Assembly: GCA_028871815.1 (NCBI GenBank)
Contig: JAGWMJ010000003.1
Coordinates: 186,001 to 250,000 of the forward strand
Length of the DNA stretch: 64,000 bases
Origin: Armatimonadota bacterium
GTDB lineage: Bacteria > Armatimonadota > Chthonomonadetes > Chthonomonadales > Chthonomonadaceae
Direction of reading: 5' to 3'
Position numbers and translations under genes: made by a program. Numbering within the stretch: the first letter of the stretch is position 1; each line of letters starts with the position of its first letter. Below the pieces are notes generated by a model. That model was given only the letters and a program-made list of their open reading frames with translations. It was not told the origin of the DNA and made no database searches. Below are positions 32,277-48,954 of this stretch, piece by piece.

Positions 32277-32306
32277 AGCTTAGCCTATTGGCGCGCAGCC
32301 TGTCAA
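32277..32306 (-). promoter_or_regulatory. Promoter of NlpC/P60 gene
   Basis: On the minus strand TTGACA (32306-32301), an 18-base spacer and TAAGCT (32282-32277). The resulting leader of roughly 180 bases contains a perfect GCGCCCG/CGGGCGC hairpin near its 5' end and a GCGCCATGGCGC palindrome near the ribosome-binding site. I could not match it to the c-di-AMP (ydaO) riboswitch that often precedes such genes. Confidence 0.6.
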
Positions 32307-32322
32307 CCTTGCGCGTGGGCTC

Positions 32323-32379
32323 AACTAAAACCTGACCGGAGTAGAATTGTTGCTTCCTCGTAAAACCTGACCGAAAGGC
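32323..32379 (+). repeat. Left 57-bp direct repeat bounding the toxin island
   Basis: Matches 39250-39306 base for base except two positions (offset 6927). Inside each copy TAAAACCTGACCG occurs twice, 35 bases apart. Both copies point the same way and enclose the whole toxin-immunity array, so they could be recombination sites, duplicated insertion-element ends, or relics of the island's integration. Confidence 0.85.
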
Positions 32380-35854: not shown

Positions 35855-36475
35855 CTACGGCTCTGGAGATAACGGTATATGCCACCACGGGTTGTCCGGC
35901 CAGACCGGCTTGCCAGAATACGGATTGACTGATTGCCAACCTTTAGGAACCTGCCGTTGTCCATAGTTCACATACCCATTGGGGTTCGTCGCGCTGGGCT
36001 CCATGATGCGGACGTCGGTCACGTTGTCGGCCAGACCATTGCCGCCGGCGCCCCCGTTGTATTGGAAGCCGGGGTTCCGCGTCGGGAACGGACCGTTAGC
36101 ACCCTTCGGAACGGGAATGACATCACCGCCTGGCGTCACGACAAAGGCGGTCTTGTCCTGCGCCGCCCCGCTTCCACCGCATGGCCCGTTATGAACCTCA
36201 ACCCCGCCGCCGACTTGCCCAACGAAATAGTCGTGGACGCCATCGACGATGAGGTTGTAGACGGTATACCCGCCGCGGCGGTGCAAAACGTCAATACGGC
36301 TGACAACCAGCTTTGGCCCGGCGCGGGTGACGATGGAAGTGCCGAGCGCCAACTCGCCCGCGTACACAAAGCCCTTGCCCGCAACGTAGAACGGATGCTG
36401 CCGGGTGCAGAGCAGGGTTTCAACCGGCTTGCGGGAGCCGGGCTCCGTGAGCGTAACGCGAAGTAGCTGCGGCAC
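35855..36475 (-). CDS. Hint-toxin cassette C
   Basis: 206 residues. Residues 1-97 are the C-terminal half of a pretoxin Hint domain: TRQHPFYVAGKGFVYAGELA, VYNLIVDGVHDYFVGQ, ending GVEVHN, the usual cleavage site. The N-terminal Hint block with the catalytic Cys is absent. Residues 98-206 are tip C: GDVIPVPKGANGPFPTRNPG, VRIMEPSATNPNGYVNY, SVNPYSGKP and WWHIPL, a pattern I recall from Rhs protein C-termini. GTG 36475 could start it, but the frame is open back to the TAA of immunity B (36515), and there is no ribosome-binding site. I take it as an unexpressed donor cassette. Immunity C follows after one base. Confidence 0.75.
   Translation of the reverse strand: MPQLLRVTLTEPGSRKPVETLLCTRQHPFYVAGKGFVYAGELALGTSIVTRAGPKLVVSRIDVLHRRGGYTVYNLIVDGVHDYFVGQVGGGVEVHNGPCGGSGAAQDKTAFVVTPGGDVIPVPKGANGPFPTRNPGFQYNGGAGGNGLADNVTDVRIMEPSATNPNGYVNYGQRQVPKGWQSVNPYSGKPVWPDNPWWHIPLSPEP
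36184..36472 (-). repeat. Hint repeat, copy C (289 bp)
   Basis: One of three nearly identical 289-base segments (others 37281-37569 and 38483-38771) encoding PQ(L/I)LRVTLT through VGGGVEVHNG. It differs from copy B mainly at FVYAG (B has FLDAG) and IVTRAG (B has IITGAG). Tips beyond the repeat are unrelated. Confidence 0.92.
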
Positions 36476-36514
36476 GCTGCGGGCCGACGTGGAGATGTCC
36501 GACGATGGCGGAGA

Positions 36515-36997
36515 TTAAACTGGGCCGGCGTGGTGGTTCAGCCACGCCTTCAATTCGGTCATGGGCTCTCGCAGAAAAGTGAGGTCCGTTGCGATTGCGA
36601 ACTTCACCACGAAGCCGTCGTCGCTCATCTCGCCGATAGAGCCCGAGATTGTGCCGCGGCCGCTAGGGCCTAGTTCAACTGAGATTTCGCAGCCCCCATC
36701 TAATGCCTCGAGGTTCGCCGCACCAGATAGAGTCGCCATGACCTCAGCCAGATCCTGACAAAACATCTCCAAATCGGCCACGGTCGTATATGTACCCGCC
36801 GAGGCCGTTAGCGGGATCGACTCTACGGCCGCCGCCATGCGGATCCAGCGGTAGCCGTCTTCCGGATCCTGAGGCGGATCAAGAAATAACAACAGAGCCC
36901 TGGAGTGACCGCGGAGCGTAATATCAGCCGTGGAATCGGCGCCGGACCGGCCCGGCGGCGGCAGCCCCGTACTCAAGGCTAGGAGCCAACGCGCCAA
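36515..36997 (-). CDS. Immunity protein B
   Basis: Up to 160 residues. The TTG start at 36997 overlaps the end of toxin tip B by 19 bases; a TTG at about 36973, directly after the toxin stop, would give a slightly shorter protein, and no site decides. Landmarks: GYRWIRMAAAVESIPLTASA, TVADLEMFCQDLAEVMATL, ISVELGPSGRGTISGSIGEM, FVVKFAIATDLTFL. The strand-helix pattern and position resemble WapI-type immunity proteins, which is an impression only. Its TAA is the upstream limit of the cassette C frame. Confidence 0.68.
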   Translation of the reverse strand: MARWLLALSTGLPPPGRSGADSTADITLRGHSRALLLFLDPPQDPEDGYRWIRMAAAVESIPLTASAGTYTTVADLEMFCQDLAEVMATLSGAANLEALDGGCEISVELGPSGRGTISGSIGEMSDDGFVVKFAIATDLTFLREPMTELKAWLNHHAGPV

Positions 36998-37632
36998 GCG
37001 GAAATCACCTGTCCCGACTCGGGGTTGACATGTACGGTGAGTTCGTCATTCATAAACCTGAGCGCGCCGCGGTCCGTCAAGGAAGGCTCGCAGTTCTGTA
37101 TCATGTTTTCTATCGCGGATGGTGGTATGCCGCGTTCCAACATCTTGTCGAGCGCGTGCCCGGAGTACCATCGCCCACCAATCTCCGTTCGCCAGCTTAG
37201 TTTGTATCCCTTTGAGAACCCAATCTCGTCGCCTGAGCGCCCGACAACATGCGACCCGTCGCCGCCGCCGCCCCCGCTTGGCCCGTTATGAACCTCAACC
37301 CCGCCGCCGACTTGCCCGACGAAATAGTCGTGGACGCCATCGACGATAAGGTTGTAGACGGTATACCCGCCGCGGCGGTGTAAAACGTCAAGTCGGCTGA
37401 CAACCAGCTTTGGCCCGGCGCCGGTGATGATGGAAGTGCCGAGCGCCAACTCGCCCGCGTCGAGAAAACCCTTGCCGGCAACGTAGAACGGATGCTGCCG
37501 GGTGCAGAGCAGGGTTTCAACCGGCTTGCGGGAGCCGGGCGCCGTGAGCGTGACGCGAAGAATCTGCGGTACGACTTTGATGTCGGCGATCGGCTGCTTG
37601 AACAGGTGTCTTCGGCCGCTTTGTCCATTTCG
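36979..37632 (-). pseudogene. Hint-toxin cassette B (no start codon)
   Basis: Open from the base after TGA 37633-37635 to the TAG at 36979 without ATG, GTG or TTG before the Hint part. It reads HLFKQPIADIKVVPQILRVT, then the C-terminal Hint half (TRQHPFYVAGKGFLDAGELA to GVEVHN), a Gly/Ser linker, and tip B: WYSGHALDKMLERGIPPSAI, ENMIQNCEPSL, RFMNDELTVHVNPESGQVIS. The HALDKMxxRGI pattern is that of BECR-fold/DUF4258-type RNase toxins. The catalytic half of Hint is missing. I call it a start-less reservoir cassette rather than a decayed gene, because the frame is intact. Immunity B follows with overlap. Confidence 0.72.
37281..37569 (-). repeat. Hint repeat, copy B (289 bp)
   Basis: Second copy of the Hint segment. 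Similarity with copy A continues beyond it into the GCC/GGC-rich linker (about 37255-37280 versus 38459-38482), whereas copy C diverges at once. Confidence 0.92.
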
Positions 37633-37772
37633 TCATCTGGCTAACCCTGTGAAGGAATGGGTGCGCCACCAGTCCAGCCCACGCTACGGATACTCTATGC
37701 CGCTGGACACGCAATGGCCCTCGTACGCATCCACGATTCGGCCCCGGACAGCAGCGCTCGTGCCGGTAGCCT

Positions 37773-38156
37773 TCAGCGCGTGGTGATGCAGTGCGCTTCC
37801 GCCTCCTCCTGCACACGATAAATCGTCGCCCATGCCATCATCTCCACGTCGTCGGGGCCAACGAACAGCGTGCGTGTGACAGATTCGTTCAATATGCGGG
37901 CAACGTAGACGTGGCACGGCCATTCGGTTACGGGGAAGAGGGAGGAGCCCTCGAAGCGCGGCGAGAGGATCACGCTGGCAATGTCTTCGCCACCCATGCC
38001 ATACGGCTGCCCTACCACAGGAGGGTCGACAGCGACGAGCATCAACTCGTTGCAAGATCGGCTTCGCAGTCGGCCCGCGATACGGCAGGCCCGCGGCGGC
38101 ACGAACGCGGGCGATTCTCTGGCAGACGATAAGTAGAAGTCGGGCACCTTCTTCAT
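37773..38156 (-). CDS. Immunity protein A
   Basis: 127 residues from ATG 38156, one base after the TAA (38158-38160) that ends the corrected frame of toxin tip A. Landmarks: LMLVAVDPPVVGQPYGMGGE, ASVILSPRFEGSSLFPVTEW, VYVARILNESVTRTLFV. No export signal. It sits exactly where an immunity gene belongs and is intact although the toxin upstream is frameshifted, as expected if protection is still selected. Function inferred from position. Confidence 0.72.
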   Translation of the reverse strand: MKKVPDFYLSSARESPAFVPPRACRIAGRLRSRSCNELMLVAVDPPVVGQPYGMGGEDIASVILSPRFEGSSLFPVTEWPCHVYVARILNESVTRTLFVGPDDVEMMAWATIYRVQEEAEAHCITTR

Positions 38157-38157
38157 C

Positions 38158-38840
38158 TTAGAATGCCGCGTTCGCGCCCGAAACCCGTCCGATGTTTATC
38201 TGGGTTTCAGGATTGGGCACAAACACCTCCGGCAACCCGCCGCCGCCGCCGCCCGGGCCCGCGACGCCACGCGGAAGACGACGCCCTCGGTGTCGTTAAG
38301 TGTGCACTCCAATACAAATCGGCCAGTGTTTCCTGGAAAAAGACCCGCCGCGACTCGGTAGTCATCCACGGTGATCGGATCCACCGTGGTGTAGTAGTTG
38401 CCGAGGCCTGGCGCTTCGCCACCAAACACACGATGAAGCTTTCTTTGTGGCAGGGCCGACCCGTCGCCGCCGCCCCCGCTTGGCCCGTTATGAACCTCAA
38501 CCCCGCCGCCGACTTGCCCGACGAAATAGTCGTGGACGCCATCGACGATAAGGTTGTAGACGGTATACCCGCCGCGGCGGCGCAAAACGTCAAGTCGGCT
38601 GACGACCAGCTTTGGCCCGGCGCGGGTGACGATGGAAGTGCCGAGCGCCAACTCGCCCGCATAGACGAATCGCTTGCCGGCAACGTAGAACGGATGCTGC
38701 CGGGTGCAGAGGAGGGATTCAACCGGTTTGCGGGAGCCTGGCGCCGTGAGCGTAACGCGAAGTAGCTGCGGAGATTTGCGGCCCCGTTTTTGGCGCGGCG
38801 CCGCCGCCTCCGCCGACCGGAACGCTCTGCATTTCAGTGG
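38158..38840 (-). pseudogene. Hint-toxin cassette A (frameshifted tip)
   Basis: The Hint half is intact (TRQHPFYVAGKRFVYAGELA to GVEVHN). Tip A begins GNYYTTVDPITVDDYRVAAG, LFPGNTGRFVLECTLND, GVVFRVASRA. From there the same frame runs into an Ala/Arg-rich stretch and stops at 38196. Shifting frame in the GGC-rich tract at about 38240-38262 restores a typical ending, GGLPEVFVPNPETQINIGRV with SGANAAF, that stops one base before the immunity A start. Rhs tips with a TTVDP...YR.AAGL...NTGRF...GLPE....P pattern are familiar to me. The frameshift is a one-base deletion, a reversible slip, or an assembly error. No start codon precedes the Hint part. Confidence 0.75.
38483..38771 (-). repeat. Hint repeat, copy A (289 bp)
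   Basis: Third copy of the Hint segment, nearest to the truncated secreted N-terminus. It differs from copy C at GKRF (C has GKGF) and VLRRRGG (C has VLHRRGG). Confidence 0.92.
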
Positions 38841-39188
38841 CTACCTGTGCGGTGATACCCCGGTGGTGGTGCTTGTCGGTGTGTTCAGCACCGGGCTTAG
38901 GCTAAACGGGGTCGCCGCCGGCGAGAAGGCGTTAACGGTTATCTTGTTACCCGAGGTGGTTGGCAGCGAATATGTGCCGTTCCCGCTGTAGCCGATCGCA
39001 AGCTTCCACTGCCCGTCGCCCGTCTGGCCCGCAGCCGGGCGCGGCGGGCCAAACACCAGCGCGCTCGCGAACGCCAGCGGCAAAAACAATGCGAGAAAGG
39101 AGGCGCGGCGGGAGTTGATCCACGCAGTTCCGGGTGAGTGCAAAATGGTACAACAGGAGGCACTGTCGCGCATGGTATTAACCACCAC
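38841..39188 (-). pseudogene. Truncated secreted N-terminus of a carrier protein
   Basis: 115 codons with an export signal (RRASFLALFLPLAFASALVF, cleaved near AAGQ) and then QTGDGQWKLAIGYSGNGTYS, LPTTSGNKITVNAFSP. It stops at TAG 38841, and the Hint A frame continues on the other side of this same codon. Reading one base differently near the GGGG at about 38856-38860 gives a more natural continuation (GITAQVATEMQSVPVGGGGG, AAPKTGPQISAATS) that runs to the Hint edge in a third frame. I infer the remains of a large secreted carrier whose middle has been deleted, leaving signal and toxin end. Confidence 0.55.
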
Positions 39189-39249
39189 TCATATGGGATG
39201 CGCCAGTATACGGTTTTGCGGCCAGAATGTCAGGTACGCGCGTTGCGTT

Positions 39250-39306
39250 AACTAAAACCTGACCGGAGTAGAATTGTTGCTGCATCGTAAAACCTGACCG
39301 AAAGGC
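39250..39306 (+). repeat. Right 57-bp direct repeat bounding the toxin island
   Basis: Second copy of the sequence at 32323-32379, same orientation, two differences (39282 and 39284). After AAAGGC the two loci diverge quickly. The nearest gene on the right is the PP2C phosphatase, which ends at 39666. Confidence 0.85.
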
Positions 39307-39665
39307 CCAAACGGTTTCGGGGCGTCGACAGGAACCGTGGCTGATGCGCCGGAGCGGTCATGCCGTGCGAGCCGGTTGCTGCAGTGGATGTGCTTTCAAA
39401 AATCACCGCCGGGCACTAGAGGAGATGCTCCTCTCGCTCAACCATGCCGATATGTCGCGGCAGATCCTGACCGCACTCCGCACTGCACAAGTCCCAATGC
39501 CGCGGAGGGAATGCTAGCTCAAGGAATGGAACCCGTTACGCACGATGCCAGGCTGGCGGGCACGCCGGCCAGCCGTGTGGCAGGAGCTTCGGGCCTCCGA
39601 AGGTCAGATTCTTGCGTGAGACAACACGCAATGCCGCGCAAAAGGCGCCGACCTATCGACTCGTC
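39307..39665. other. Island right flank, no gene seen
   Basis: About 360 bases between the right repeat and the phosphatase stop. Frames on the plus strand run on antisense into the phosphatase gene and look random. Nothing recognisable. Confidence 0.4.
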
Positions 39666-40649
39666 TCAAGTGCCGAACAGGCGGCTCCAGGCCGAGGAGC
39701 GGCGTCGCAACGAGCCCTGGCCGTCGCGCTCGGAGTCCGCCGCAGCGGCCCCGGCTTCGAGGCCGTCTCGCAGCACTTCGCGTACCGAAACCACCATTGC
39801 GGTCACGTTGTCCGGTCCCCCTCGGGCGTTGGCCAGCACAATCAAGCGTCGAACTGCCTCCGCTGGCGAACAAGCCTCCACGGTGGCGCAAATTTCGTTA
39901 TCCGACACGCAACCACTCAGCCCGTCGGAACACAGCAACCATATATCTCCGGCTCGGGCTTCCTCCCAGAAGAAGTCGACACGCGTTGTTGGCGCCGACC
40001 CCACCGATCGGGTAATGACGTTCCGAAATGGCGACATCTCGGCATCCGCGCGCGTCAGGGCGCCGCTTCGCACCTGCTCTTCTACCCAGGAGTGGTCCAG
40101 CGATACCTGCCGGATGTCTCCATTCCGAACGAGATACGCCCGGCTGTCGCCGACCTGGGCGATGACCACATCGCCACCAACAATAACGGCTGCTGTAAGT
40201 GTGGTAGCCATGCCGGAGCGTGATGGCAATAGGCGCGCCATCGCATAAATCCGGTCGCTCGCTGCCTGGATGGCCTCATTCAGTGCGCCATCGACATCTT
40301 CAAGTTCACTGTTGTAGTAGCCGGTGATCAGCATGCTCAACGCGGTTTCACTGGCAATCTGCCCGGCATTGGCGCCGCCGACGCCATCCGCCACAGCAAA
40401 CAGCGATCCGCGCGCAGCAACCACGCCGGGCTCTTCCGGCTCATACCACTCGAACTTGTCTTCGTTGTTCTCGCGCACACGGCCCATATCGGTGCGCGCA
40501 GCAACCTTCACCACAACCTTCGTTTCGGCGCCAACATCCGCATACGCGCGCCAGCCCAATACAAGTTCGGCGCGGTCGATCCGTGCGGTTCGATCCGTCA
40601 CAGCCGGTTCAGGCGTGTGTGTTTCAGCCGAAACCTCGGGCTCACTCAT
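39666..40649 (-). CDS. PP2C-family Ser/Thr protein phosphatase
   Basis: About 327 residues. Metal and catalytic motifs of PPM phosphatases are complete: REENNEDKF-like RVRENNEDKFEW (about 58-68), FAVADGVGGANAG, AQVGDSRAYLVR, DIWLLCSDGLSGCV and GGPDNVTAMVV. The first 40 residues are an acidic, probably disordered tail. ATG 40649 overlaps the stop of the double-FHA gene by eight bases. It is the last gene of the FHA-vWA block and would remove the phosphates that FHA domains read. No Ser/Thr kinase is encoded in the window. Confidence 0.93.
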   Translation of the reverse strand: MSEPEVSAETHTPEPAVTDRTARIDRAELVLGWRAYADVGAETKVVVKVAARTDMGRVRENNEDKFEWYEPEEPGVVAARGSLFAVADGVGGANAGQIASETALSMLITGYYNSELEDVDGALNEAIQAASDRIYAMARLLPSRSGMATTLTAAVIVGGDVVIAQVGDSRAYLVRNGDIRQVSLDHSWVEEQVRSGALTRADAEMSPFRNVITRSVGSAPTTRVDFFWEEARAGDIWLLCSDGLSGCVSDNEICATVEACSPAEAVRRLIVLANARGGPDNVTAMVVSVREVLRDGLEAGAAAADSERDGQGSLRRRSSAWSRLFGT

Positions 40650-41592
40650 CCTGTACGGAGTCCGCGGGGGGATTCTCAGCGCCATCCGAGAGGCCGTCGC
40701 TCACGCCGCCACCCCCGGATTCTCCTGAGCGTGCAGCAAGCTCGATACGGAACGCACGTACCCCGATCTGAAGAGTATCTGCCGGACTCAGAAACCGCGG
40801 GATGTGCGGAGCGAGGCGTTCGCCGTTTACCAGGGTGCCATTTGTGCTGCCGAGATCGGTGACCATCATGCCGCCGTCGGCGACCTCCAGCCGGACGTGG
40901 ACGCCCGATACATAGTTGTCATCGCTAATTACGATGTCGTTGGCGGCGCCACGGCCGGCCGTAACGGTCGCCGCAGTAACCGCGAACTGCTCGTCACCGG
41001 TAGCAGCCCGCAGCCATCCAAACGGCTCTGCCCCCTCAAAACCCTCCGACCCGGCGACGGTGTCATCGGTCGGCAAGACCTGAGTGACCTCCGCTGCCGC
41101 CGCCACCGCTTCAAGCCTCATCTGCCAGCCACCGAGCTTTATTGACGCGCCGTCAGCCAGCGGGCAGATCTCGCCAGGATTGAGCCTTCTTCCGTCTACG
41201 GACGTACCATTCGTGCTGTCAAGATCCTGGATGGTCGTCCCACCGGGCCGAATCGCAATCTCGGCATGCGTGCGCGACACCGAGCCATCCGGAGAGATGA
41301 TGTCGGTATCCGCACGGCCGATCGTGGTTTTACCCGACCGGAGCGGAAATCGCCGCCCGTCGGATGAGATCAGCCACGCCAAAGCCGCTTCCGTTGGCGG
41401 CTCAAGCTGCTGTGGCGCCGGCTGCGACAGCAAGTAGCCGCACTCGCCACACCAGATCTCAACATCCGGCGTGGAGCCGGCGCATACTGGGCAGACGACC
41501 GATCCGCCGAGCCGCGTGCGCTGGCCGTCATCCGGAAGAACGCCGGTAACTTCCTGCCCTGCTACCAGGGTCCGGTCCACGTTGGTCTCCAT
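40642..41592 (-). CDS. Zinc-ribbon protein with two FHA domains
   Basis: 316 residues. A four-Cys zinc ribbon (C34, C37, C48, C51: CPVC...CGEC) is followed by two forkhead-associated domains. FHA1: TTIGRADTDIISPDGSVSRT, HAEI, DLDSTNGTSVDG. FHA2: VTAGRGAANDIVISDDNYVS, GVHVRLE, DLGSTNGTLVNG. The Arg, Ser, His and Asn-Gly positions that hold phosphothreonine are present in both. It would act as a cytoplasmic adaptor. ATG 41592 overlaps the stop of the vWA gene by one base (TGATG), and its own stop overlaps the phosphatase start, so the three are translationally coupled. Confidence 0.9.
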   Translation of the reverse strand: METNVDRTLVAGQEVTGVLPDDGQRTRLGGSVVCPVCAGSTPDVEIWCGECGYLLSQPAPQQLEPPTEAALAWLISSDGRRFPLRSGKTTIGRADTDIISPDGSVSRTHAEIAIRPGGTTIQDLDSTNGTSVDGRRLNPGEICPLADGASIKLGGWQMRLEAVAAAAEVTQVLPTDDTVAGSEGFEGAEPFGWLRAATGDEQFAVTAATVTAGRGAANDIVISDDNYVSGVHVRLEVADGGMMVTDLGSTNGTLVNGERLAPHIPRFLSPADTLQIGVRAFRIELAARSGESGGGGVSDGLSDGAENPPADSVQDE

Positions 41593-42926
41593 CAGCTACC
41601 CTCCTCACGGCGACCCTGATCCAGGCTTACAATTGCGCCCATCAGCGTCTTTTGCGCATCGGCGCCACCGTGTCGCAGCGCGTTCAGAGCCTCATCCACC
41701 TCGCGCGCCGATCCAGCGGCCCCGGCGTGCGCCAACATCGCGCGTGTCTTCTCCAATTGCGCGGCTGCGCCGATTGCGGTGATCTGCTGGGTGCGCATAC
41801 CCATCACCGTCCGCTGCAAATCGGCCGAGGCGCGAGCCATCTCCAACTCGGCCGCCACAACCTCGCTGAGCGGAGCTGCCGCCGAGGCAGACGCATCAAA
41901 ATCCACCACAACATCGCTCCGCAGCGACTGGCGGCAGCCCATGGCAATATCTTCGTACTGAATGAGCGCCTGCGCAACACGGTACCGACCGGCGGAATGG
42001 CGCTCCAACTCCATCTCGAAGAGCACGGTCTGGGCCGTACCGCGCTCGATGTCTGAGAGTTGCATCTCCATTCCGCGTCCACTCCAACTGGCAGCTTGTC
42101 CGTAAACCTGACGGATCTGCACCCAACGTGCCGGTTCCAGCCTTACCGTTACGTTCCGTGCTGCGGTCGACATCATCGTATGCAGTTCATGCCGGAACAC
42201 CTCGGGGAGCATGTCGGAGCGTTGGATGTGGTAGTAGGATCCGCCACTGCGCTTTGCAATACCGGCCATGAGCTCCTCGTTGTAGTCAGGCCCGAACCCG
42301 AGCGCGCTGATGGTGATGCCTCTGGAACGCTGGTCGGCCACGGCCTGCACGATCGAGGTGTAGTCCTTCAGGCCCGCAGTGGGCTCGCCGTCGGTAAGCA
42401 GCAGTACCCGGCTTACGTAACCGGCAGCCTGCCCCATCACGGAGGATACTTGAGCGCACGCAGCAATCATTCCGTCGTACAGGTTCGTGGTATTGCCCAC
42501 CTCGAGCCTGTGGATATGCTGCTTCACGAGGTCCTTGTTGACCACGCGCCGAGCAGGCATCAGAACATCAATCTGCTCTTCAAACACAACAATCGAGAGA
42601 ATGTCGGTCGGTTCCAGCATATCAACAACGTGGTCGCAGGCGCGCTTCACGTATTCAATCGGCTCACCCTCCATGCTGCCGGAACGATCGATGCACAGGC
42701 ACACGTTCACCGGAGCTCTACGACCGGTCTGCTGGCCGGCGGCGCGCAAGACGAGCAGCGCGTGATCGCGCATACCGGCGGTAGGCGCGATGGCATGCCC
42801 GGAGATGCACTCGGCCTGTAGCGCCATGGCCGGCGCTCCCATCACCGTGGGCCCGGCGCCCAGTTGTCCGCCGATTATGGTCGGAGCAGCGCCGGCGCCC
42901 GAAACCATCTGCGTCTTTTCTTCCAT
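41592..42926 (-). CDS. vWA-domain protein
   Basis: About 444 residues, no signal peptide. The vWA fold has a complete MIDAS: CIDRSGSMEG (Asp80-Ser84), the Thr in GNTTNLYDGM and the Asp in LLTDGEPTAGL. It continues LGFGPDYNEELMAGIAKRSG, then a beta-rich region and a C-terminal helix (about 370-440) with an Ala/Gln-rich character. The N-terminal 45 residues contain a Gly/Thr-rich tail with several TQM/TIIGG/TVMG threonines, a possible phospho-target for the neighbouring FHA domains. AGGAGG lies five bases before ATG 42926; a GTG one codon earlier is less well placed. Neighbours are FHA proteins on both sides. Confidence 0.9.
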   Translation of the reverse strand: MEEKTQMVSGAGAAPTIIGGQLGAGPTVMGAPAMALQAECISGHAIAPTAGMRDHALLVLRAAGQQTGRRAPVNVCLCIDRSGSMEGEPIEYVKRACDHVVDMLEPTDILSIVVFEEQIDVLMPARRVVNKDLVKQHIHRLEVGNTTNLYDGMIAACAQVSSVMGQAAGYVSRVLLLTDGEPTAGLKDYTSIVQAVADQRSRGITISALGFGPDYNEELMAGIAKRSGGSYYHIQRSDMLPEVFRHELHTMMSTAARNVTVRLEPARWVQIRQVYGQAASWSGRGMEMQLSDIERGTAQTVLFEMELERHSAGRYRVAQALIQYEDIAMGCRQSLRSDVVVDFDASASAAAPLSEVVAAELEMARASADLQRTVMGMRTQQITAIGAAAQLEKTRAMLAHAGAAGSAREVDEALNALRHGGADAQKTLMGAIVSLDQGRREEGS

Positions 42927-42935
42927 CACCGCCTC

Positions 42936-44366
42936 CTAATCAAATCGGAACGTGCTCTCTCCAAACTGCAGTGTATCCCCCGGTTTGAGGGATTGGGACT
43001 GCACGCGCACACCATTCACAAAGGTGCCGTTCGAGGACCCGTTGTCGGTCACCATCGCCTGGTACCGGGCGCACTGGATCGTGGCGTGCAGGCGTGAAGT
43101 CAAGCCGTCGGTCGCCAGCGATATACGTGTTTCAGCGCTTCGGCCAACCGAGTTTGGTCCATTGGCAAGCGCAAACGTGACACCCTGGTAGGGACCGGCA
43201 ATGCCCGTGAGCCGGTGCTCGCCGGGAGCGCCTGCCGATGTTGTATCGGGCGCCGCGATCGCCGGCGCAACGGGAGCGCCTACGGTGCAGCCGCAGTTTC
43301 CCCTTGCATCACGCAACAGACCACAGAATGGGCAAGCGCCGGGAGCGGCGCCGGGTGCAACGGCCAAAGCTGGAGCCGACCTCGCCGTGTCGGGTTGGCG
43401 CGTCCCAACACCGGGCAGTCCGGCGCGCTGCCGAAATCTTATGGCGTGCGAGCCAATACGAATCTCGTCACCATCGCGCAGCGGAACGGCGCTGCGGGGT
43501 TCAAGGCGGTTGCCATTCAGCCGCGTGCCGGTTTGTGTTCCGGCATCCACCAGCATGTACTGCTTCCTGTGCACCTGTATCGCCGCGTGCTGGCTGGCCA
43601 CGCTGTTATCACCGAACAGCGGTACCTCGGCGCCTTCATCGCGACCCATTATGTTGAGCGCCCGGTCCAGAATGATGTCCTTGCCCTCGTTCCGTCCAAC
43701 CATCACACGCACCCAACCAGGCTTGAGGATCTCCTCCACCAGGCCGGTAAAGAATCCGGTGCAGGCGCCGACGGCGGTGAGGCCGATAGCGCGGCTGAGG
43801 CCGCCGACATCGTGAACGCCGCTGGCATTTGTGGCCGCAAGCTCCATCTTGCCAAACCATTGTGCGGCAAGGTCGAACACAAAGCCGCCGGCCAGGCCAC
43901 CAACCAGGCCACCGATAAGCCCGTGCCAGGACTTTCGGAATGAGAGCGAGCCAATTCCGACTCCCGCGCCGACCAGTGAGCCGAATGCTGCCCAGCCCAC
44001 CGATCGGGCGAACACCTCCTGGACGAAGCCTGCCATTCCCAGCGCTTCCGGCGCTACCTGTCCGCCAAGCGCCGTGAAGAGCGCATTGCCGATTGAAAAA
44101 CCCAAATAACCCAACGCCATACCGGATGCCGCCGAGATCAGCGCGCCGCGCACCATCAACTTCGGCGAACCATCCACGACGCCATCGACCAGACCCAGAA
44201 ACAGGCCGATGAACCCACCTACGGCCACGATGAAGATCAGACCGTCGCGGGCGCTGAGGTCACCAAGCGGGTGCGCGGAGTAGTTGACGTAATACTCCTG
44301 TACGGCATATCCAACAAAGCCGCCGACGGCGCCGAGCAGCAGGCCCAACAGGATTCGAGATCGCAT
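42936..44366 (-). CDS. Membrane protein with two FHA domains
   Basis: 476 residues. About 1-210 are a glycine-rich membrane region with six to eight helices (ILLGLLLGAVGGFVGYAVQE and repeated GG-rich segments such as LIGGLVGGLAGGFVFDLA). FHA1 follows (NIMGRDEGAEVPLFGD, ASQHAAIQVH, GTQTGTRLNG); then a Pro/Ala linker with a small Cys cluster (CPFCGLLRDARGNCGC) and FHA2 (SVGRSAETRISL, TSRLHATIQ, NGSSNGTFVNG). It may anchor phosphorylated partners at the membrane. The stop overlaps the ribosome-binding site of the vWA gene. Its upstream neighbour is another FHA membrane protein, 12 bases away. Confidence 0.88.
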   Translation of the reverse strand: MRSRILLGLLLGAVGGFVGYAVQEYYVNYSAHPLGDLSARDGLIFIVAVGGFIGLFLGLVDGVVDGSPKLMVRGALISAASGMALGYLGFSIGNALFTALGGQVAPEALGMAGFVQEVFARSVGWAAFGSLVGAGVGIGSLSFRKSWHGLIGGLVGGLAGGFVFDLAAQWFGKMELAATNASGVHDVGGLSRAIGLTAVGACTGFFTGLVEEILKPGWVRVMVGRNEGKDIILDRALNIMGRDEGAEVPLFGDNSVASQHAAIQVHRKQYMLVDAGTQTGTRLNGNRLEPRSAVPLRDGDEIRIGSHAIRFRQRAGLPGVGTRQPDTARSAPALAVAPGAAPGACPFCGLLRDARGNCGCTVGAPVAPAIAAPDTTSAGAPGEHRLTGIAGPYQGVTFALANGPNSVGRSAETRISLATDGLTSRLHATIQCARYQAMVTDNGSSNGTFVNGVRVQSQSLKPGDTLQFGESTFRFD

Positions 44367-44378
44367 ACCTTGGGTCGC

Positions 44379-45647
44379 CTAACCCGCGTCAAACCGGAAG
44401 CGAGTGAGCCCCACATGCAGCTCGTCTCCCGTTTGAATTGGCGACGGCTGATCGGGCGCAATACGGATGCCGTTCACAAAAGTCCCGTTAGCGGAACCCA
44501 GGTCCGTCACAGTCCAGCCTTCAGGTCCACTTCTCAAAACTGCATGCCGCCTTGAAACGTTCCCGTCGGCGCTCAACGCAACCTGATTGGTGATATCCCG
44601 GCCAATAGTCAGACTGGAACCGTTCAACTCGAAGCTGTGACCACCATAAGCGCCGGCGGACCCAAAGATGCGCGGTGTACCGGCTACCACCGCCTGGCCT
44701 GGAGCGGTCAACGGCTCTGCAGTGCCCTCCGTGATCGGCGCCACAGGCACCGGCGCCTGCTTCCCGAACCCAGGCAGCGATGCTGGCGCTTCCACGGGCG
44801 CCGTTTCGATGCCGAGGTGACTCAGCCACGTCTTGGCGTGACCGGTAGTCACCGCCCACCAGGCGCCGTATACGATTCCTCCAACAGAGACCAGCGCCAC
44901 CAGTGTACGCACGAAGGAGAGAAGCTCGTTATTCCCGCCACTCTCGGCCGGGGCCGGGATGCTGGTGTTGGCCACTTTGGCCACAACGTGGGCTCCGGGC
45001 GACAGCGTCTGCACATCGGACCAGGTGACTTCGATCGGCCCCAAAACCTTGGCGGCGGCCGGATGGTCCAGCCCGATTGTCTCGGTCAGGCTGACCGGTG
45101 AGTTCGAGCCATACTCCACGGTCACGGTAACCGGCACATTCAGCGGCACATTCCGGAATCGGGCGATACCGTCGTCGGAAGCTGTGAGCACCGTGCTCTC
45201 ACGGACTTTTGGGCTGGACGTACTCAAGGTTACGCGAGGGCCAGCTACCGGAACACCGCCTTCCTGAACGGAGGCCAATACGGACCGGCACTCCTTGAAC
45301 GCCGACTCCGCTAGAACCACGTTCGCGCCGGCCAACACCTGCATCCGCGCCACATTCCCGCGGGTCACATCGCAAACCTCCAGGTCGGCCGCTTTGTGCG
45401 GCATCGAGAGCACGATATTGCTTGACGAGGAGGCCGGCAGTGGCAGAGAGGCGGGCGCGGTTCCGGCATCCGATGCGCCGCGCACGAACCGGTATGTAAA
45501 CTGTCCGGGTACATCCACCTTGACGTGCAGCGGGTATTTGCCGCCGGCAGAGGCCGCGACCTGGGCACGAACAGGGCCGGGCACGTTGACCAGGATGCCA
45601 GCTACGAAGGCAGCCGCACTCAACTGCATCTTGATGGTTCGGTTCAT
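44379..45647 (-). CDS. Exported-domain FHA membrane protein
   Basis: 422 residues. Signal peptide (LSAAAFVAGILVNVPGPVRA), an extracytoplasmic part of about 240 residues with an Ig-like section (GVPVAGPRVTLSTSSPKVRE), one membrane helix (VRTLVALVSVGGIVYGAWWA), a Pro-rich linker, and a cytoplasmic FHA domain (LTIGRDITNQVALSADGNVS, RRHAVL, DLGSANGTFVNG). This topology links something outside the membrane to phospho-reading inside. The ATG overlaps the stop of the NAD(P)HX repair gene by four bases, which ties the signalling block to the upstream metabolic genes at least transcriptionally. Confidence 0.88.
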   Translation of the reverse strand: MNRTIKMQLSAAAFVAGILVNVPGPVRAQVAASAGGKYPLHVKVDVPGQFTYRFVRGASDAGTAPASLPLPASSSSNIVLSMPHKAADLEVCDVTRGNVARMQVLAGANVVLAESAFKECRSVLASVQEGGVPVAGPRVTLSTSSPKVRESTVLTASDDGIARFRNVPLNVPVTVTVEYGSNSPVSLTETIGLDHPAAAKVLGPIEVTWSDVQTLSPGAHVVAKVANTSIPAPAESGGNNELLSFVRTLVALVSVGGIVYGAWWAVTTGHAKTWLSHLGIETAPVEAPASLPGFGKQAPVPVAPITEGTAEPLTAPGQAVVAGTPRIFGSAGAYGGHSFELNGSSLTIGRDITNQVALSADGNVSRRHAVLRSGPEGWTVTDLGSANGTFVNGIRIAPDQPSPIQTGDELHVGLTRFRFDAG

Positions 45648-47230
45648 AGGCTCGATCTCATTCGCGCGATGGCACAGCCGATAGAAGCCGTGATATCCTC
45701 CGGAGTCATTGACGTTTCACCATACGATTCTGACGCGATATCGCCCGCAAGGCCGTGCAGATAACAGCCCAGGGCCGCTGCGGCCGCCATGCGTGCGTTT
45801 GATGCCTCAGAGCTTCCGCTCATCTCGGCCTGCGCCAGCAGCGCCACGATCATCCCGGTCAATGTGTCGCCCGAACCTCCCCTGGCCATACCAGGGTTCC
45901 CCGTGACGTTCACAGACAGCGATCCTTCCGGCTCCGCGATTATCGTATATCGCCCCTTTAGCAGCACCACGGCGCCGTATTCCCTGGCAAGCTGCGCAGC
46001 GGCGGCAAAACGATCTGCCTCCACAACCGATATCGTGCTGTCCAGCAAGCGCGCAGCCTCGCCGGGATGTGGCGTCAAGAGCGTAGAACCGGCGCGCCGC
46101 GGCAGCGGCGACCGACCTTCGCGGTGCATCTGTGCCAGGCAGTTCAGCCCGTCGGCATCCAACACGATCGAGCCCGACCACTCCGTCAGCAGACGCTCCG
46201 TCACCGCGTTCGCGCCGGGTCCGGTGCCGATGCCGGGGCCGAGCGCCAACACGGCGCTGGGCCGCATTGCACCGAGAACTGCGTCGGCTGCCTCTGCCGC
46301 CAACTGCCCTTCGGCCTCGGCGAGCGGCACCGTAAGCGCGGCCTCGAGCCCAGCAGCGACCACCTGCTGGATGGAACTGGGTGCGAATACGGTCACGAGC
46401 CCCGCGCCGGTCCTTAGCGCCGCGCGCCCCGCCAGACGCGGAGCGCCAATCATCCCCGCGCTCCCGGCAACGATAGCCGCCCGGCCATAATCTCCCTTGT
46501 TTGTGTTGGCGTGCCGGTCAAAGAGGCATTGCTGCGCCCAGGCGAACGCAGGCGCTGCAAACTCGCCTATGTCGAGACTTCGTACCCCAGTCTCCGGAAC
46601 GAGCCGGTCCCAGCAAATACCGATCGGATCAACCAGCACGCGGCCGGCGTGGTCGGCCCCGGGAAAGAGAAACATGCACCGCTTCTTGAATGCAAAGGTA
46701 ATCGTAGTGTCAGCACTCACAGCGGCGCCCGGGGTGTATCCGGTATCACACTCCACACCGGATGGAATATCGACCGACAGAATGGGACAATCCAAAGCCG
46801 TGACGCAACGGATCGCGTGGGCGATCTCGTCCCGCGGCGCGCCTACCGCTCCCGTGCCGAGGAGCGCGTCCACAGCGAGATCGCACCGAGAGAGCTCAGC
46901 GCCGGCGCATACTTGAACGCCGCAGGCATGCGCCGCCTGGTACTGCCGCGCGGCGTCGCCGCGCGGTCGACCAACGTCCGCAGCAAGCACTATCCGAACC
47001 CCGAACCCGGCGGCCGCAAGATGCCGCGCAGCCGCAAGGCCATCGCCCCCATTATTGCCTGGTCCGCAGAATACGGCGATTTGTTGACCGCGCTTGACGG
47101 AGACCATGTCGCGTGCAGCGCGCGCAACAGCAGCACCGGCGTTCTCCATCAGGATCGCGCTGCTCATGCCCTGTAGTTGCGCAGCCGCCGCGTCGGCATC
47201 GCGCATCTGCTGCGCCGTAGCGACCTTCAC
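45644..47230 (-). CDS. nnr: Bifunctional NAD(P)HX epimerase/dehydratase
   Basis: About 528 residues from GTG 47230, which overlaps the upstream stop as GTGA; a longer frame to 47743 lies inside the reductase gene and is rejected. The N-terminal YjeF epimerase domain has FCGPGNNGGDGLAAARHL and VDALLGTG; the C-terminal ribokinase-like dehydratase domain has ALGPGIGTGPGAN, LTPHPGEAARLL and NPGMARGGSGDTLTGM. Together they repair hydrated NADH and NADPH using ATP or ADP. It is the usual bacterial fusion and length. Confidence 0.95.
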   Translation of the reverse strand: MKVATAQQMRDADAAAAQLQGMSSAILMENAGAAVARAARDMVSVKRGQQIAVFCGPGNNGGDGLAAARHLAAAGFGVRIVLAADVGRPRGDAARQYQAAHACGVQVCAGAELSRCDLAVDALLGTGAVGAPRDEIAHAIRCVTALDCPILSVDIPSGVECDTGYTPGAAVSADTTITFAFKKRCMFLFPGADHAGRVLVDPIGICWDRLVPETGVRSLDIGEFAAPAFAWAQQCLFDRHANTNKGDYGRAAIVAGSAGMIGAPRLAGRAALRTGAGLVTVFAPSSIQQVVAAGLEAALTVPLAEAEGQLAAEAADAVLGAMRPSAVLALGPGIGTGPGANAVTERLLTEWSGSIVLDADGLNCLAQMHREGRSPLPRRAGSTLLTPHPGEAARLLDSTISVVEADRFAAAAQLAREYGAVVLLKGRYTIIAEPEGSLSVNVTGNPGMARGGSGDTLTGMIVALLAQAEMSGSSEASNARMAAAAALGCYLHGLAGDIASESYGETSMTPEDITASIGCAIARMRSSL

Positions 47231-47973
47231 AGTGAGGTAACTCCACCAATGCGATAGCGCAGGTACAGTTCGCTGCCATCCGCATACACAGACAGCAGGT
47301 CGAGCGACACTACCCGCCCGGGTGGCAGGCCGGCGCCAGCCATAATCGAAGGAATGCCGGAACCTCCCTTGAGTTTGGGCGAGATCGTCAAGAACAGTTC
47401 GTCTGCCAGCCCAGCCATAATCAGCGCGCTGTTCAGGGTTGGGCCGCCCTCGCACAGCAATAAGCGGCGGCCATATGTCTGGCGGAGTATACCGAGTAGT
47501 TGGGTGAGATCCACCTCCCCGGAGCCAACCTCCAGGACATCTGCACCATTGCCGACGCACTGCCGTACCGCGGCAGCCGCCTCCTCGGGCGCAGCCACCA
47601 ACGCCAGCGCGGATCGCCGCGTGAAGAAGGGGTTGCCGGCCGGCAGGTTTGCTGATCGCGTCACGGTAACGCGCAGCAGCTCCGGCGGATAGAGAACGGG
47701 ACCGGCGCGCAGCGTGGAGGCGCCCACCAGCACCGCATCGCACTGCCGTTGGAGGCGCCGAAACAAAAGCTGGTCGGTGGGCCCACCAACGCCCTTCGCG
47801 GTTCCACCGGGCTCGCCAATAACGATCTTGCCGTCCACTGTGGCGGCCATGTTGATGAAAACCGCCGGACGACCTTTTGCCGGCTCACCAAAATCCAGTG
47901 CCTCATAGAGTGCGTCCGGCGAGCCGGCCGGCCGGGTAACGTCGAGCAGGCGTGCGATACTCACGGCGCGCAC
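47227..47973 (-). CDS. RibD C-terminal-like (DHFR-fold) reductase
   Basis: 248 residues of the family that reduces the ribosyl group of the pyrimidine intermediate in riboflavin synthesis. Motifs: VFINMAATVDGKIVIG (substrate strand), AVLVGASTLRAGPVLYPPEL, and LLCEGGPTLNSALIMAGLAD, the NADPH-binding Gly-rich element. The deaminase domain of full RibD is absent, so it is either a stand-alone reductase or a relative with another substrate. It overlaps the NAD(P)HX repair gene. Confidence 0.82.
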   Translation of the reverse strand: MRAVSIARLLDVTRPAGSPDALYEALDFGEPAKGRPAVFINMAATVDGKIVIGEPGGTAKGVGGPTDQLLFRRLQRQCDAVLVGASTLRAGPVLYPPELLRVTVTRSANLPAGNPFFTRRSALALVAAPEEAAAAVRQCVGNGADVLEVGSGEVDLTQLLGILRQTYGRRLLLCEGGPTLNSALIMAGLADELFLTISPKLKGGSGIPSIMAGAGLPPGRVVSLDLLSVYADGSELYLRYRIGGVTSL

Positions 47974-47997
47974 CGTAGTGCAATTGGCGCAAACGGC

Positions 47998-48954
47998 CTA
48001 TGCAGAGGCGAGCGCGTGACTTCGCGAAGCCTGCAGCTGGCCGGCCGACCCCAGGTATTCGTTGCGGCTGGCGATGAACTTTGCATATTCGCCCATGAAT
48101 ATCTTTCCCGGATCTCGCAGGTCGAAGCCGGCGGGCTTATCGCGGAAATACTCGCGATGAACGCGCGTCCACACCAGCCGGCCATCTGTATCGATATTCA
48201 CCTTACAAACACCGAGCTTGGCGGCAGGCAGGTACTGGTTTGGATCAACACCCCGCGAGCCATGGATCGCCCCGCCGGCTGCGTTGATGCGATCCACTTC
48301 CTCCTGAGGCACGGAACTGGAGCCGTGCATCACCAGCGGCACGCCGGGCAGCCTCTGCTGGATCGCCCGAACGCGGTCAAAGTGGATGGCCTGGCTGCCG
48401 CTGAACTTGTATGCGCCGTGGCTGGTGCCGATCGCGCAGGCCAGTGAGTCGCAGCCGGTCAGCTTTACGAACTCCTCGGCCTCGGCGGGATCGGTAAGCA
48501 GCGAGTTCTTCTCGTCCACGTGGATATCTTCTTCCACGCCACCCAGCATACCGAGTTCCGCCTCCACCGATATGCCTCGCGCATGCGCCGCCTCAACCAC
48601 GCGCCGGGTTATGGCCACGTTCTCGGCAAACTCCTCGTGAGAGGCATCAATCATCACCGACGAATAGAAGCCGCTGGCGATGCAATCCATGGCGCTTGCC
48701 TCATCACCGTGATCGAGGTGTACGGCGAAGAGTGCATCCGGCCAGATCACCTCCGACGTGCGTATGATCGACTCAAGCAGCATCTTGTTGGTGTACGAGC
48801 GCGCACCGCGGGATATCTGTATGATGAACGGAGCCTGCGATTGGATGGCGCCCTCGAAAAGACCGACGGTCTGCTCCAGATTGTTGATATTGTAGGCGCC
48901 TAGAGCATAGTTGCCATACGCGTGTTCAAATAGCGTATGGGTGGGAACAATCAC
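47998..48954 (-). CDS. fba: Class II fructose-bisphosphate aldolase
   Basis: About 318 residues. The start is GTG 48954 because AAGGAG lies five bases upstream and the family N-terminus (VPTHTLFEHAYGNYALGAYN) follows at once; a longer ATG frame to 49041 is rejected. Zinc and phosphate motifs: AVHLDHGDE, SVMIDASHEEFAENV, SVEAELGMLGGVEED, ACAIGTSHGAYKF and VMHGSSSVPQEEV. Zn-dependent cleavage of fructose 1,6-bisphosphate, or a tagatose/ketose analogue, in glycolysis. It lies between the sulfur-transfer genes and the reductase gene, all on the same strand. Confidence 0.93.
   Translation of the reverse strand: MIVPTHTLFEHAYGNYALGAYNINNLEQTVGLFEGAIQSQAPFIIQISRGARSYTNKMLLESIIRTSEVIWPDALFAVHLDHGDEASAMDCIASGFYSSVMIDASHEEFAENVAITRRVVEAAHARGISVEAELGMLGGVEEDIHVDEKNSLLTDPAEAEEFVKLTGCDSLACAIGTSHGAYKFSGSQAIHFDRVRAIQQRLPGVPLVMHGSSSVPQEEVDRINAAGGAIHGSRGVDPNQYLPAAKLGVCKVNIDTDGRLVWTRVHREYFRDKPAGFDLRDPGKIFMGEYAKFIASRNEYLGSAGQLQASRSHALASA

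Follow-up and report, generated by a model that had tools for sequence, protein, structure and literature searches.

Five co-directional genes occupy positions 39666-45647 on the minus strand of the window (i.e., the whole 64,000-nt stretch of DNA analysed here), and all five ORFs are present at the coordinates given in Table 1. Their products are three FHA proteins (five FHA folds in total), a vWA protein with an intact MIDAS and a PP2C phosphatase, and they constitute five members of a six-gene set, probably a phosphorylation switch, spread across Armatimonadota. ORFs, Pfam matches (FHA, vWA and PP2C, all far above cut-off) and junction sequences confirm the near-touching or overlapping arrangement described in an earlier, sequence-only reading of this DNA: gaps of 12 nt (SP-FHA to polytopic FHA-FHA) and 6-9 nt (polytopic FHA-FHA to vWA) are followed by a stop-start overlap TGATG between the vWA and Zn-ribbon genes and by the overlap ATGAGTGA between the Zn-ribbon and PP2C genes. 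Given this last, coupled-start overlap, the PP2C start is most likely at 40649, and that of the vWA gene is most likely the ATG at 42926. Directly upstream of the five and overlapping the SP-FHA gene by 4 nt lies nnr, with homologs in 27 relative loci. The transcription unit probably begins with nnr, one gene before the set, and the true start of nnr is likely near 47200. An Rfam search of window positions 38000-48500 gave no match.

Table 1 Genes and protein features of the FHA/vWA/PP2C operon, in order of transcription (window coordinates)
Feature	Position	Strand	Description	Evidence
nnr ORF	45644..47743	-	YjeF_N + Carb_kinase; NAD(P)H-hydrate repair enzyme	Pfam
SP-FHA gene	44379..45647	-	422 aa; signal peptide followed by a beta-rich exported part (about 38-190); single TM helix (241-268)	Pfam FHA (1x) 5.8e-18; AlphaFold; hydropathy; ortholog alignment
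Cytoplasmic FHA domain of SP-FHA	44409-44609	-
Polytopic FHA-FHA gene	42936..44366	-	476 aa; N-terminal 215 aa hydrophobic, three strong TM segments	Pfam FHA (2x); hydropathy
FHA-a	43452-43652	-	degenerate
FHA-b	42960-43151	-	canonical
vWA gene	41592..42929	-	about 444 aa; N-tail, vWA domain with intact MIDAS, beta-sandwich, helix bundle	Pfam VWA 1.4e-19; AlphaFold pLDDT 82
vWA N-tail	42834-42926		disordered, Thr motifs
vWA C-terminal helix bundle	41619-41864
Zn-ribbon-FHA-FHA gene	40642..41592	-	316 aa; Thr-motif N-tail, zinc ribbon, two canonical FHA domains	Pfam FHA (2x); Cys and FHA residue conservation
Zinc ribbon	41437-41493		four Cys
FHA domains of the Zn-ribbon protein	41131-41328, 40762-40965		canonical
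PP2C (PPM) phosphatase gene	39666..40685	-		Pfam PP2C 2.2e-15

Two of the three FHA proteins are membrane proteins, as had been proposed. In the AlphaFold model of SP-FHA, pLDDT is high at residues 81-210 and 326-420, and the structure matches are taken up by the FHA domain, leaving the exported part unrepresented among them. All five FHA domains counted earlier are indeed found as folds, but one of them is degenerate at its phosphothreonine (pThr) site. The pThr-holding residues show no or almost no variation in SP-FHA, in FHA-b of the polytopic protein and in both FHA domains of the Zn-ribbon protein (40-50 relatives each), whereas FHA-a of the polytopic protein has lost the pThr-binding serine in 41 of 45 relatives and the asparagine in nearly all, the window genome included. 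Thus, four of the domains are likely readers, and FHA-a, judging from these substitutions, probably does another job. In the Zn-ribbon protein, cysteines C34, C37, C48 and C51 are invariant in 14 orthologs, so that it combines an N-terminal Cys4 zinc module with FHA domains of conserved pThr-binding residues, as an ArnA-type partner requires. The phosphatase scores 227.8 bits against the Stp1 family, for which the cut-off is 230, and its N-tail carries a conserved TA[KR]F.R.ELV.GW-like motif.

The vWA protein shows both features ascribed to it from the sequence, i.e., an intact MIDAS (D81, S83, S85, T148 and D180, invariant in 81 aligned sequences) and a threonine-rich N-tail, which is conserved with its motifs in relatives. 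Its AlphaFold model places this disordered tail ahead of a vWA domain, a beta-sandwich and a helix bundle, and three whole-length structure matches stand out: ArnB (8s05_A; Z 34.0, 373 of 381 residues, all three domains), a vWA protein of Catenulispora acidiphila (4fx5; Z 33.8, the full three-domain fold) and ArnE (5a8j; Z 30.7, 360 aligned). The sequence profile of the protein also finds ArnB (E 3e-12). Conservation in the helix bundle reaches 100% at T374, 98% at T395 and 96% at T428, against a bundle mean of 43%, and in the N-tail it is 98% at T28 and 85% at T6. The N-tails are rich in [RK]TQ and RT.MG motifs, and the pattern [RKP]T.[MILV] occurs in them 127 times as compared to 15.0 +/- 3.6 in shuffled tails, an excess that is descriptive, as the pattern was chosen after the tails had been seen. 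We consider threonine conservation the stronger evidence of the two. Three gene neighbourhoods of related vWA proteins encoded on Deinococcus and cyanobacterial plasmids contain no FHA, PP2C or kinase genes.

The usual order in Armatimonadota is SP-FHA, polytopic FHA-FHA, vWA, Zn-ribbon-FHA-FHA, PP2C and a Hanks kinase, and owing to its recurrence in dozens of genomes of the phylum the set is not a chance grouping. Most same-order relatives have the kinase directly after PP2C. Among the best 80 of 433 named loci, which by their titles come wholly or almost wholly from Armatimonadota (several read only "bacterium" and one Actinomycetota), 40 contain PP2C with enough downstream sequence or have the kinase in view, and 37 of these have the kinase after PP2C, though the window genome does not. 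The gene set is thus not kinase-less by design. The sequence-only reading had named a kinase always adjacent in relatives as its refutation, and this is essentially what the relatives show. The window genome encodes its kinase at C3:314362-316152, outside the window, on the same contig and strand and about 83 kb from the operon. This protein aligns with an operon kinase over its full length (45% identity, 632 aligned columns), shares with the operon kinases the unusual glycine loop ARSNDIVYE (the ARSND signature), has a TPR tail with no PASTA match and falls among the operon kinases in a tree (support 94/99, slightly below the strict mark); the other kinases of the genome align to operon kinases over little beyond the kinase domain. 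By sequence and tree placement, it is the ortholog of the operon kinases, separated from the operon in this genome, and the earlier suggestion of a dependence on a distant kinase was therefore right here. All other genomes in the tree with no kinase visible beside the operon likewise encode one protein of the wider operon-kinase group. A metallophosphoesterase gene adjoins the kinase on its 3' side in the window genome, in five relatives and in genome G002, and given this shared pair, the two genes moved together.

Just downstream of PP2C, where the kinase would be expected, lies one copy (39215-39300) of an imperfect 86-nt direct repeat with TAAAACCTGACCG; the other copy is at window positions 32288-32373, the two flank a cassette region, and similar sequence occurs at five places in the genome. 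A transposable repeat was considered as a possible cause of the kinase move, but none of the TAAAACCTGACCG copies is at the present site of the kinase.

The co-occurrence across genomes that the sequence-only reading had suggested examining was followed in 201 Armatimonadota genomes of 90% completeness or more. The vWA marker is present in 153 of them and the ARSND kinase pattern in 133, with 127 genomes containing both, 26 the vWA marker only, 6 the kinase only and 42 neither (overlap counted by hand from two genome tables; Fisher p 5e-19, in a test that ignores shared ancestry). The 127 include cases in which the two are unlinked: eight genomes from a single large family, read at the kinase locus, have the kinase apart from the other operon genes and retain both. 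Part of the genomes with vWA only reflect the strictness of the ARSND pattern, e.g., the kinase of G035 reads IGRSND. Two 1.5 Mb genomes (G150 and G151) have no ARSND pattern and are not among the vWA-positive ones, while nearly all other members of their family keep both.

The closest working parallel that we recognize is archaeal. In Sulfolobus acidocaldarius, the archaellum is regulated by an ArnA-ArnB-ArnC-PP2A switch (PMC6509490, PMC12852372), in which ArnC phosphorylates threonines in the ArnB helix bundle, the ArnA FHA domain then binds ArnB, and the ArnA zinc finger also touches ArnB (PMC12852372). The likeness extends to a protein of vWA, beta-sandwich and helix bundle with threonine sites in the bundle, a zinc-binding FHA partner, a Hanks kinase with a TPR-like region and a Ser/Thr phosphatase. 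However, the partner here has two FHA domains and a zinc ribbon, whereas ArnA has one FHA domain and a RanBP2-type finger, the phosphatase is a PP2C instead of PP2A, the vWA protein has an added N-terminal threonine tail, the operon adds two membrane FHA proteins, and an archaellum output cannot apply. The sequence-defined ArnB_C domain (PF18677) is not listed for the vWA protein and is absent from the window genome and G002, the same search being positive in S. acidocaldarius. Moreover, the three-domain fold is widespread, with 4fx5, likened by structure alone, in a tie with ArnB, and most proteins with such a fold lie outside multi-phosphorylation processes (PMC12852372). As PF18677 was not found and the fold is common, we claim an Arn-like way of working by analogy, not membership of the family.

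We postulate that the operon and its kinase form a phospho-switch of ArnAB-like type, equipped with a kinase and a phosphatase of its own and with FHA proteins for docking at the membrane, and assign this reading a probability of roughly 0.6. The membrane Hanks-type kinase with its TPR tail would phosphorylate the N-tail threonines of the vWA protein (candidate sites in [RK]TQ and RT.MG) and its helix-bundle threonines (putatively T374, T395 and T428), and may also target comparable motifs in the Zn-ribbon FHA and PP2C tails. Canonical FHA domains, i.e., the two soluble ones of the Zn-ribbon protein and one in each membrane protein, would then bind the phosphorylated sites in pairings that we can only infer, and could bring the vWA and Zn-ribbon proteins together in a tight complex or recruit the pair to the membrane, with PP2C resetting the switch. 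The working principle would be that of archaeal ArnA, ArnB, the ArnC kinase and PP2A, plus two membrane FHA docking proteins, although the tail motifs might have another role. Nothing points to a membrane phospho-relay, as previously suggested for these genes; the anatomy suits an FHA-pThr assembly switch set by kinase and phosphatase. The stronger statement, that the set is a bacterial ArnAB counterpart conserved throughout Armatimonadota (an ArnB-architecture vWA hub with TPR-tailed kinase, PP2C, zinc-ribbon reader and two membrane FHA readers), we put at somewhat short of even odds. If true, Bacteria would have an Arn-type vWA-FHA switch of their own, a complete phosphothreonine set of writer, eraser, reader and hub could be defined across a little-studied phylum, and a ligand motif would be available for testing on bacterial FHA domains. 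Chthonomonas calidirosea and Fimbriimonas ginsengisoli belong to this phylum, are in culture and could be used to test the reading. Among open-licence papers we found no published description of this operon in Armatimonadota.

Mycobacteria offer a second comparison, as their FhaA/FhaB-PstP-PknA/PknB genes likewise bring FHA proteins, a PP2C and a membrane Hanks kinase into one cluster. The operon could accordingly be read as an envelope or division regulator of PknB-PstP-FhaA/FhaB type, in which the FHA proteins of the membrane bring in envelope enzymes, with only an accessory part for the vWA protein. The joint occurrence of kinase, PP2C and membrane FHA proteins is consistent with this, as is the resemblance of the FHA domains to those of FhaA, FhaB, GarA and OdhI. 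However, the operon kinase has a TPR tail and no PASTA (the PASTA kinase of the genome is at another locus, L047), the operon contains a vWA protein and polytopic FHA proteins that set it apart from the mycobacterial cluster, and FhaA_N was not found by Pfam in the five window proteins. FhaA_N is present at a separate locus of the same genome, L044 (G000:C1, 6358-11244), where an FhaA_N-FHA protein, a PP2C and a Hanks kinase resemble the mycobacterial FhaA-PstP-kinase set, and we consider an envelope role for the window operon unlikely.

Slightly less probable still is that threonine tails and FHA domains act within single proteins, as an autoregulatory GarA/OdhI-like intramolecular lock, and not in assembly between proteins. 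The Zn-ribbon FHA protein does have threonine motifs of its own N-terminal to its FHA domains, and GarA-type proteins likewise carry such motifs in this position, yet the densest conserved threonine tail is found in the vWA protein, where an FHA domain is lacking. A truly kinase-less scaffold, with the FHA proteins standing in for a kinase and an unrelated distant one serving it, was the core of the earlier proposal and is now very improbable. It agrees with the view from the window, which shows no kinase gene between 39666 and 45647 or immediately downstream, but as a general statement it is refuted by the adjacent kinase in the relatives counted above, and in the window genome itself the ortholog is retained at another site, together with the gene that normally follows it. 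One moved gene can make a gene set look kinase-less.

A role as regulatory module in a T7SS-like secretion system can hardly be entertained: T7SSc does encode a membrane kinase (TscD), a vWA protein (TscE) and a PPM phosphatase (TscF), the same trio as here, and FHA proteins are common in novel T7SS clusters (PMC11217815), but the WXG100 family was found in 0 of 31 genomes (the window genome and 30 relatives) with a positive Bacillus subtilis control, and the link was rejected on this absence. A defence system was likewise rejected, as the PADLOC matches were to kinase-domain models, PD-T4-6 among them, and to a single weak PP2C model, with no system assigned.

Two further observations concern this genome. 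An 804-aa protein encoded at locus L050 (G000:C10, 6422-8836) has a divergent kinase-like N-terminus followed by WD40 repeats. Just downstream of PP2C, window positions 36168-38766 contain three 300-nt copies (93% identity, spacing 1.1-1.2 kb), each encoding a pretoxin-HINT-like segment and then a different tail, an arrangement suggestive of a cassette array that offers alternative C-termini.
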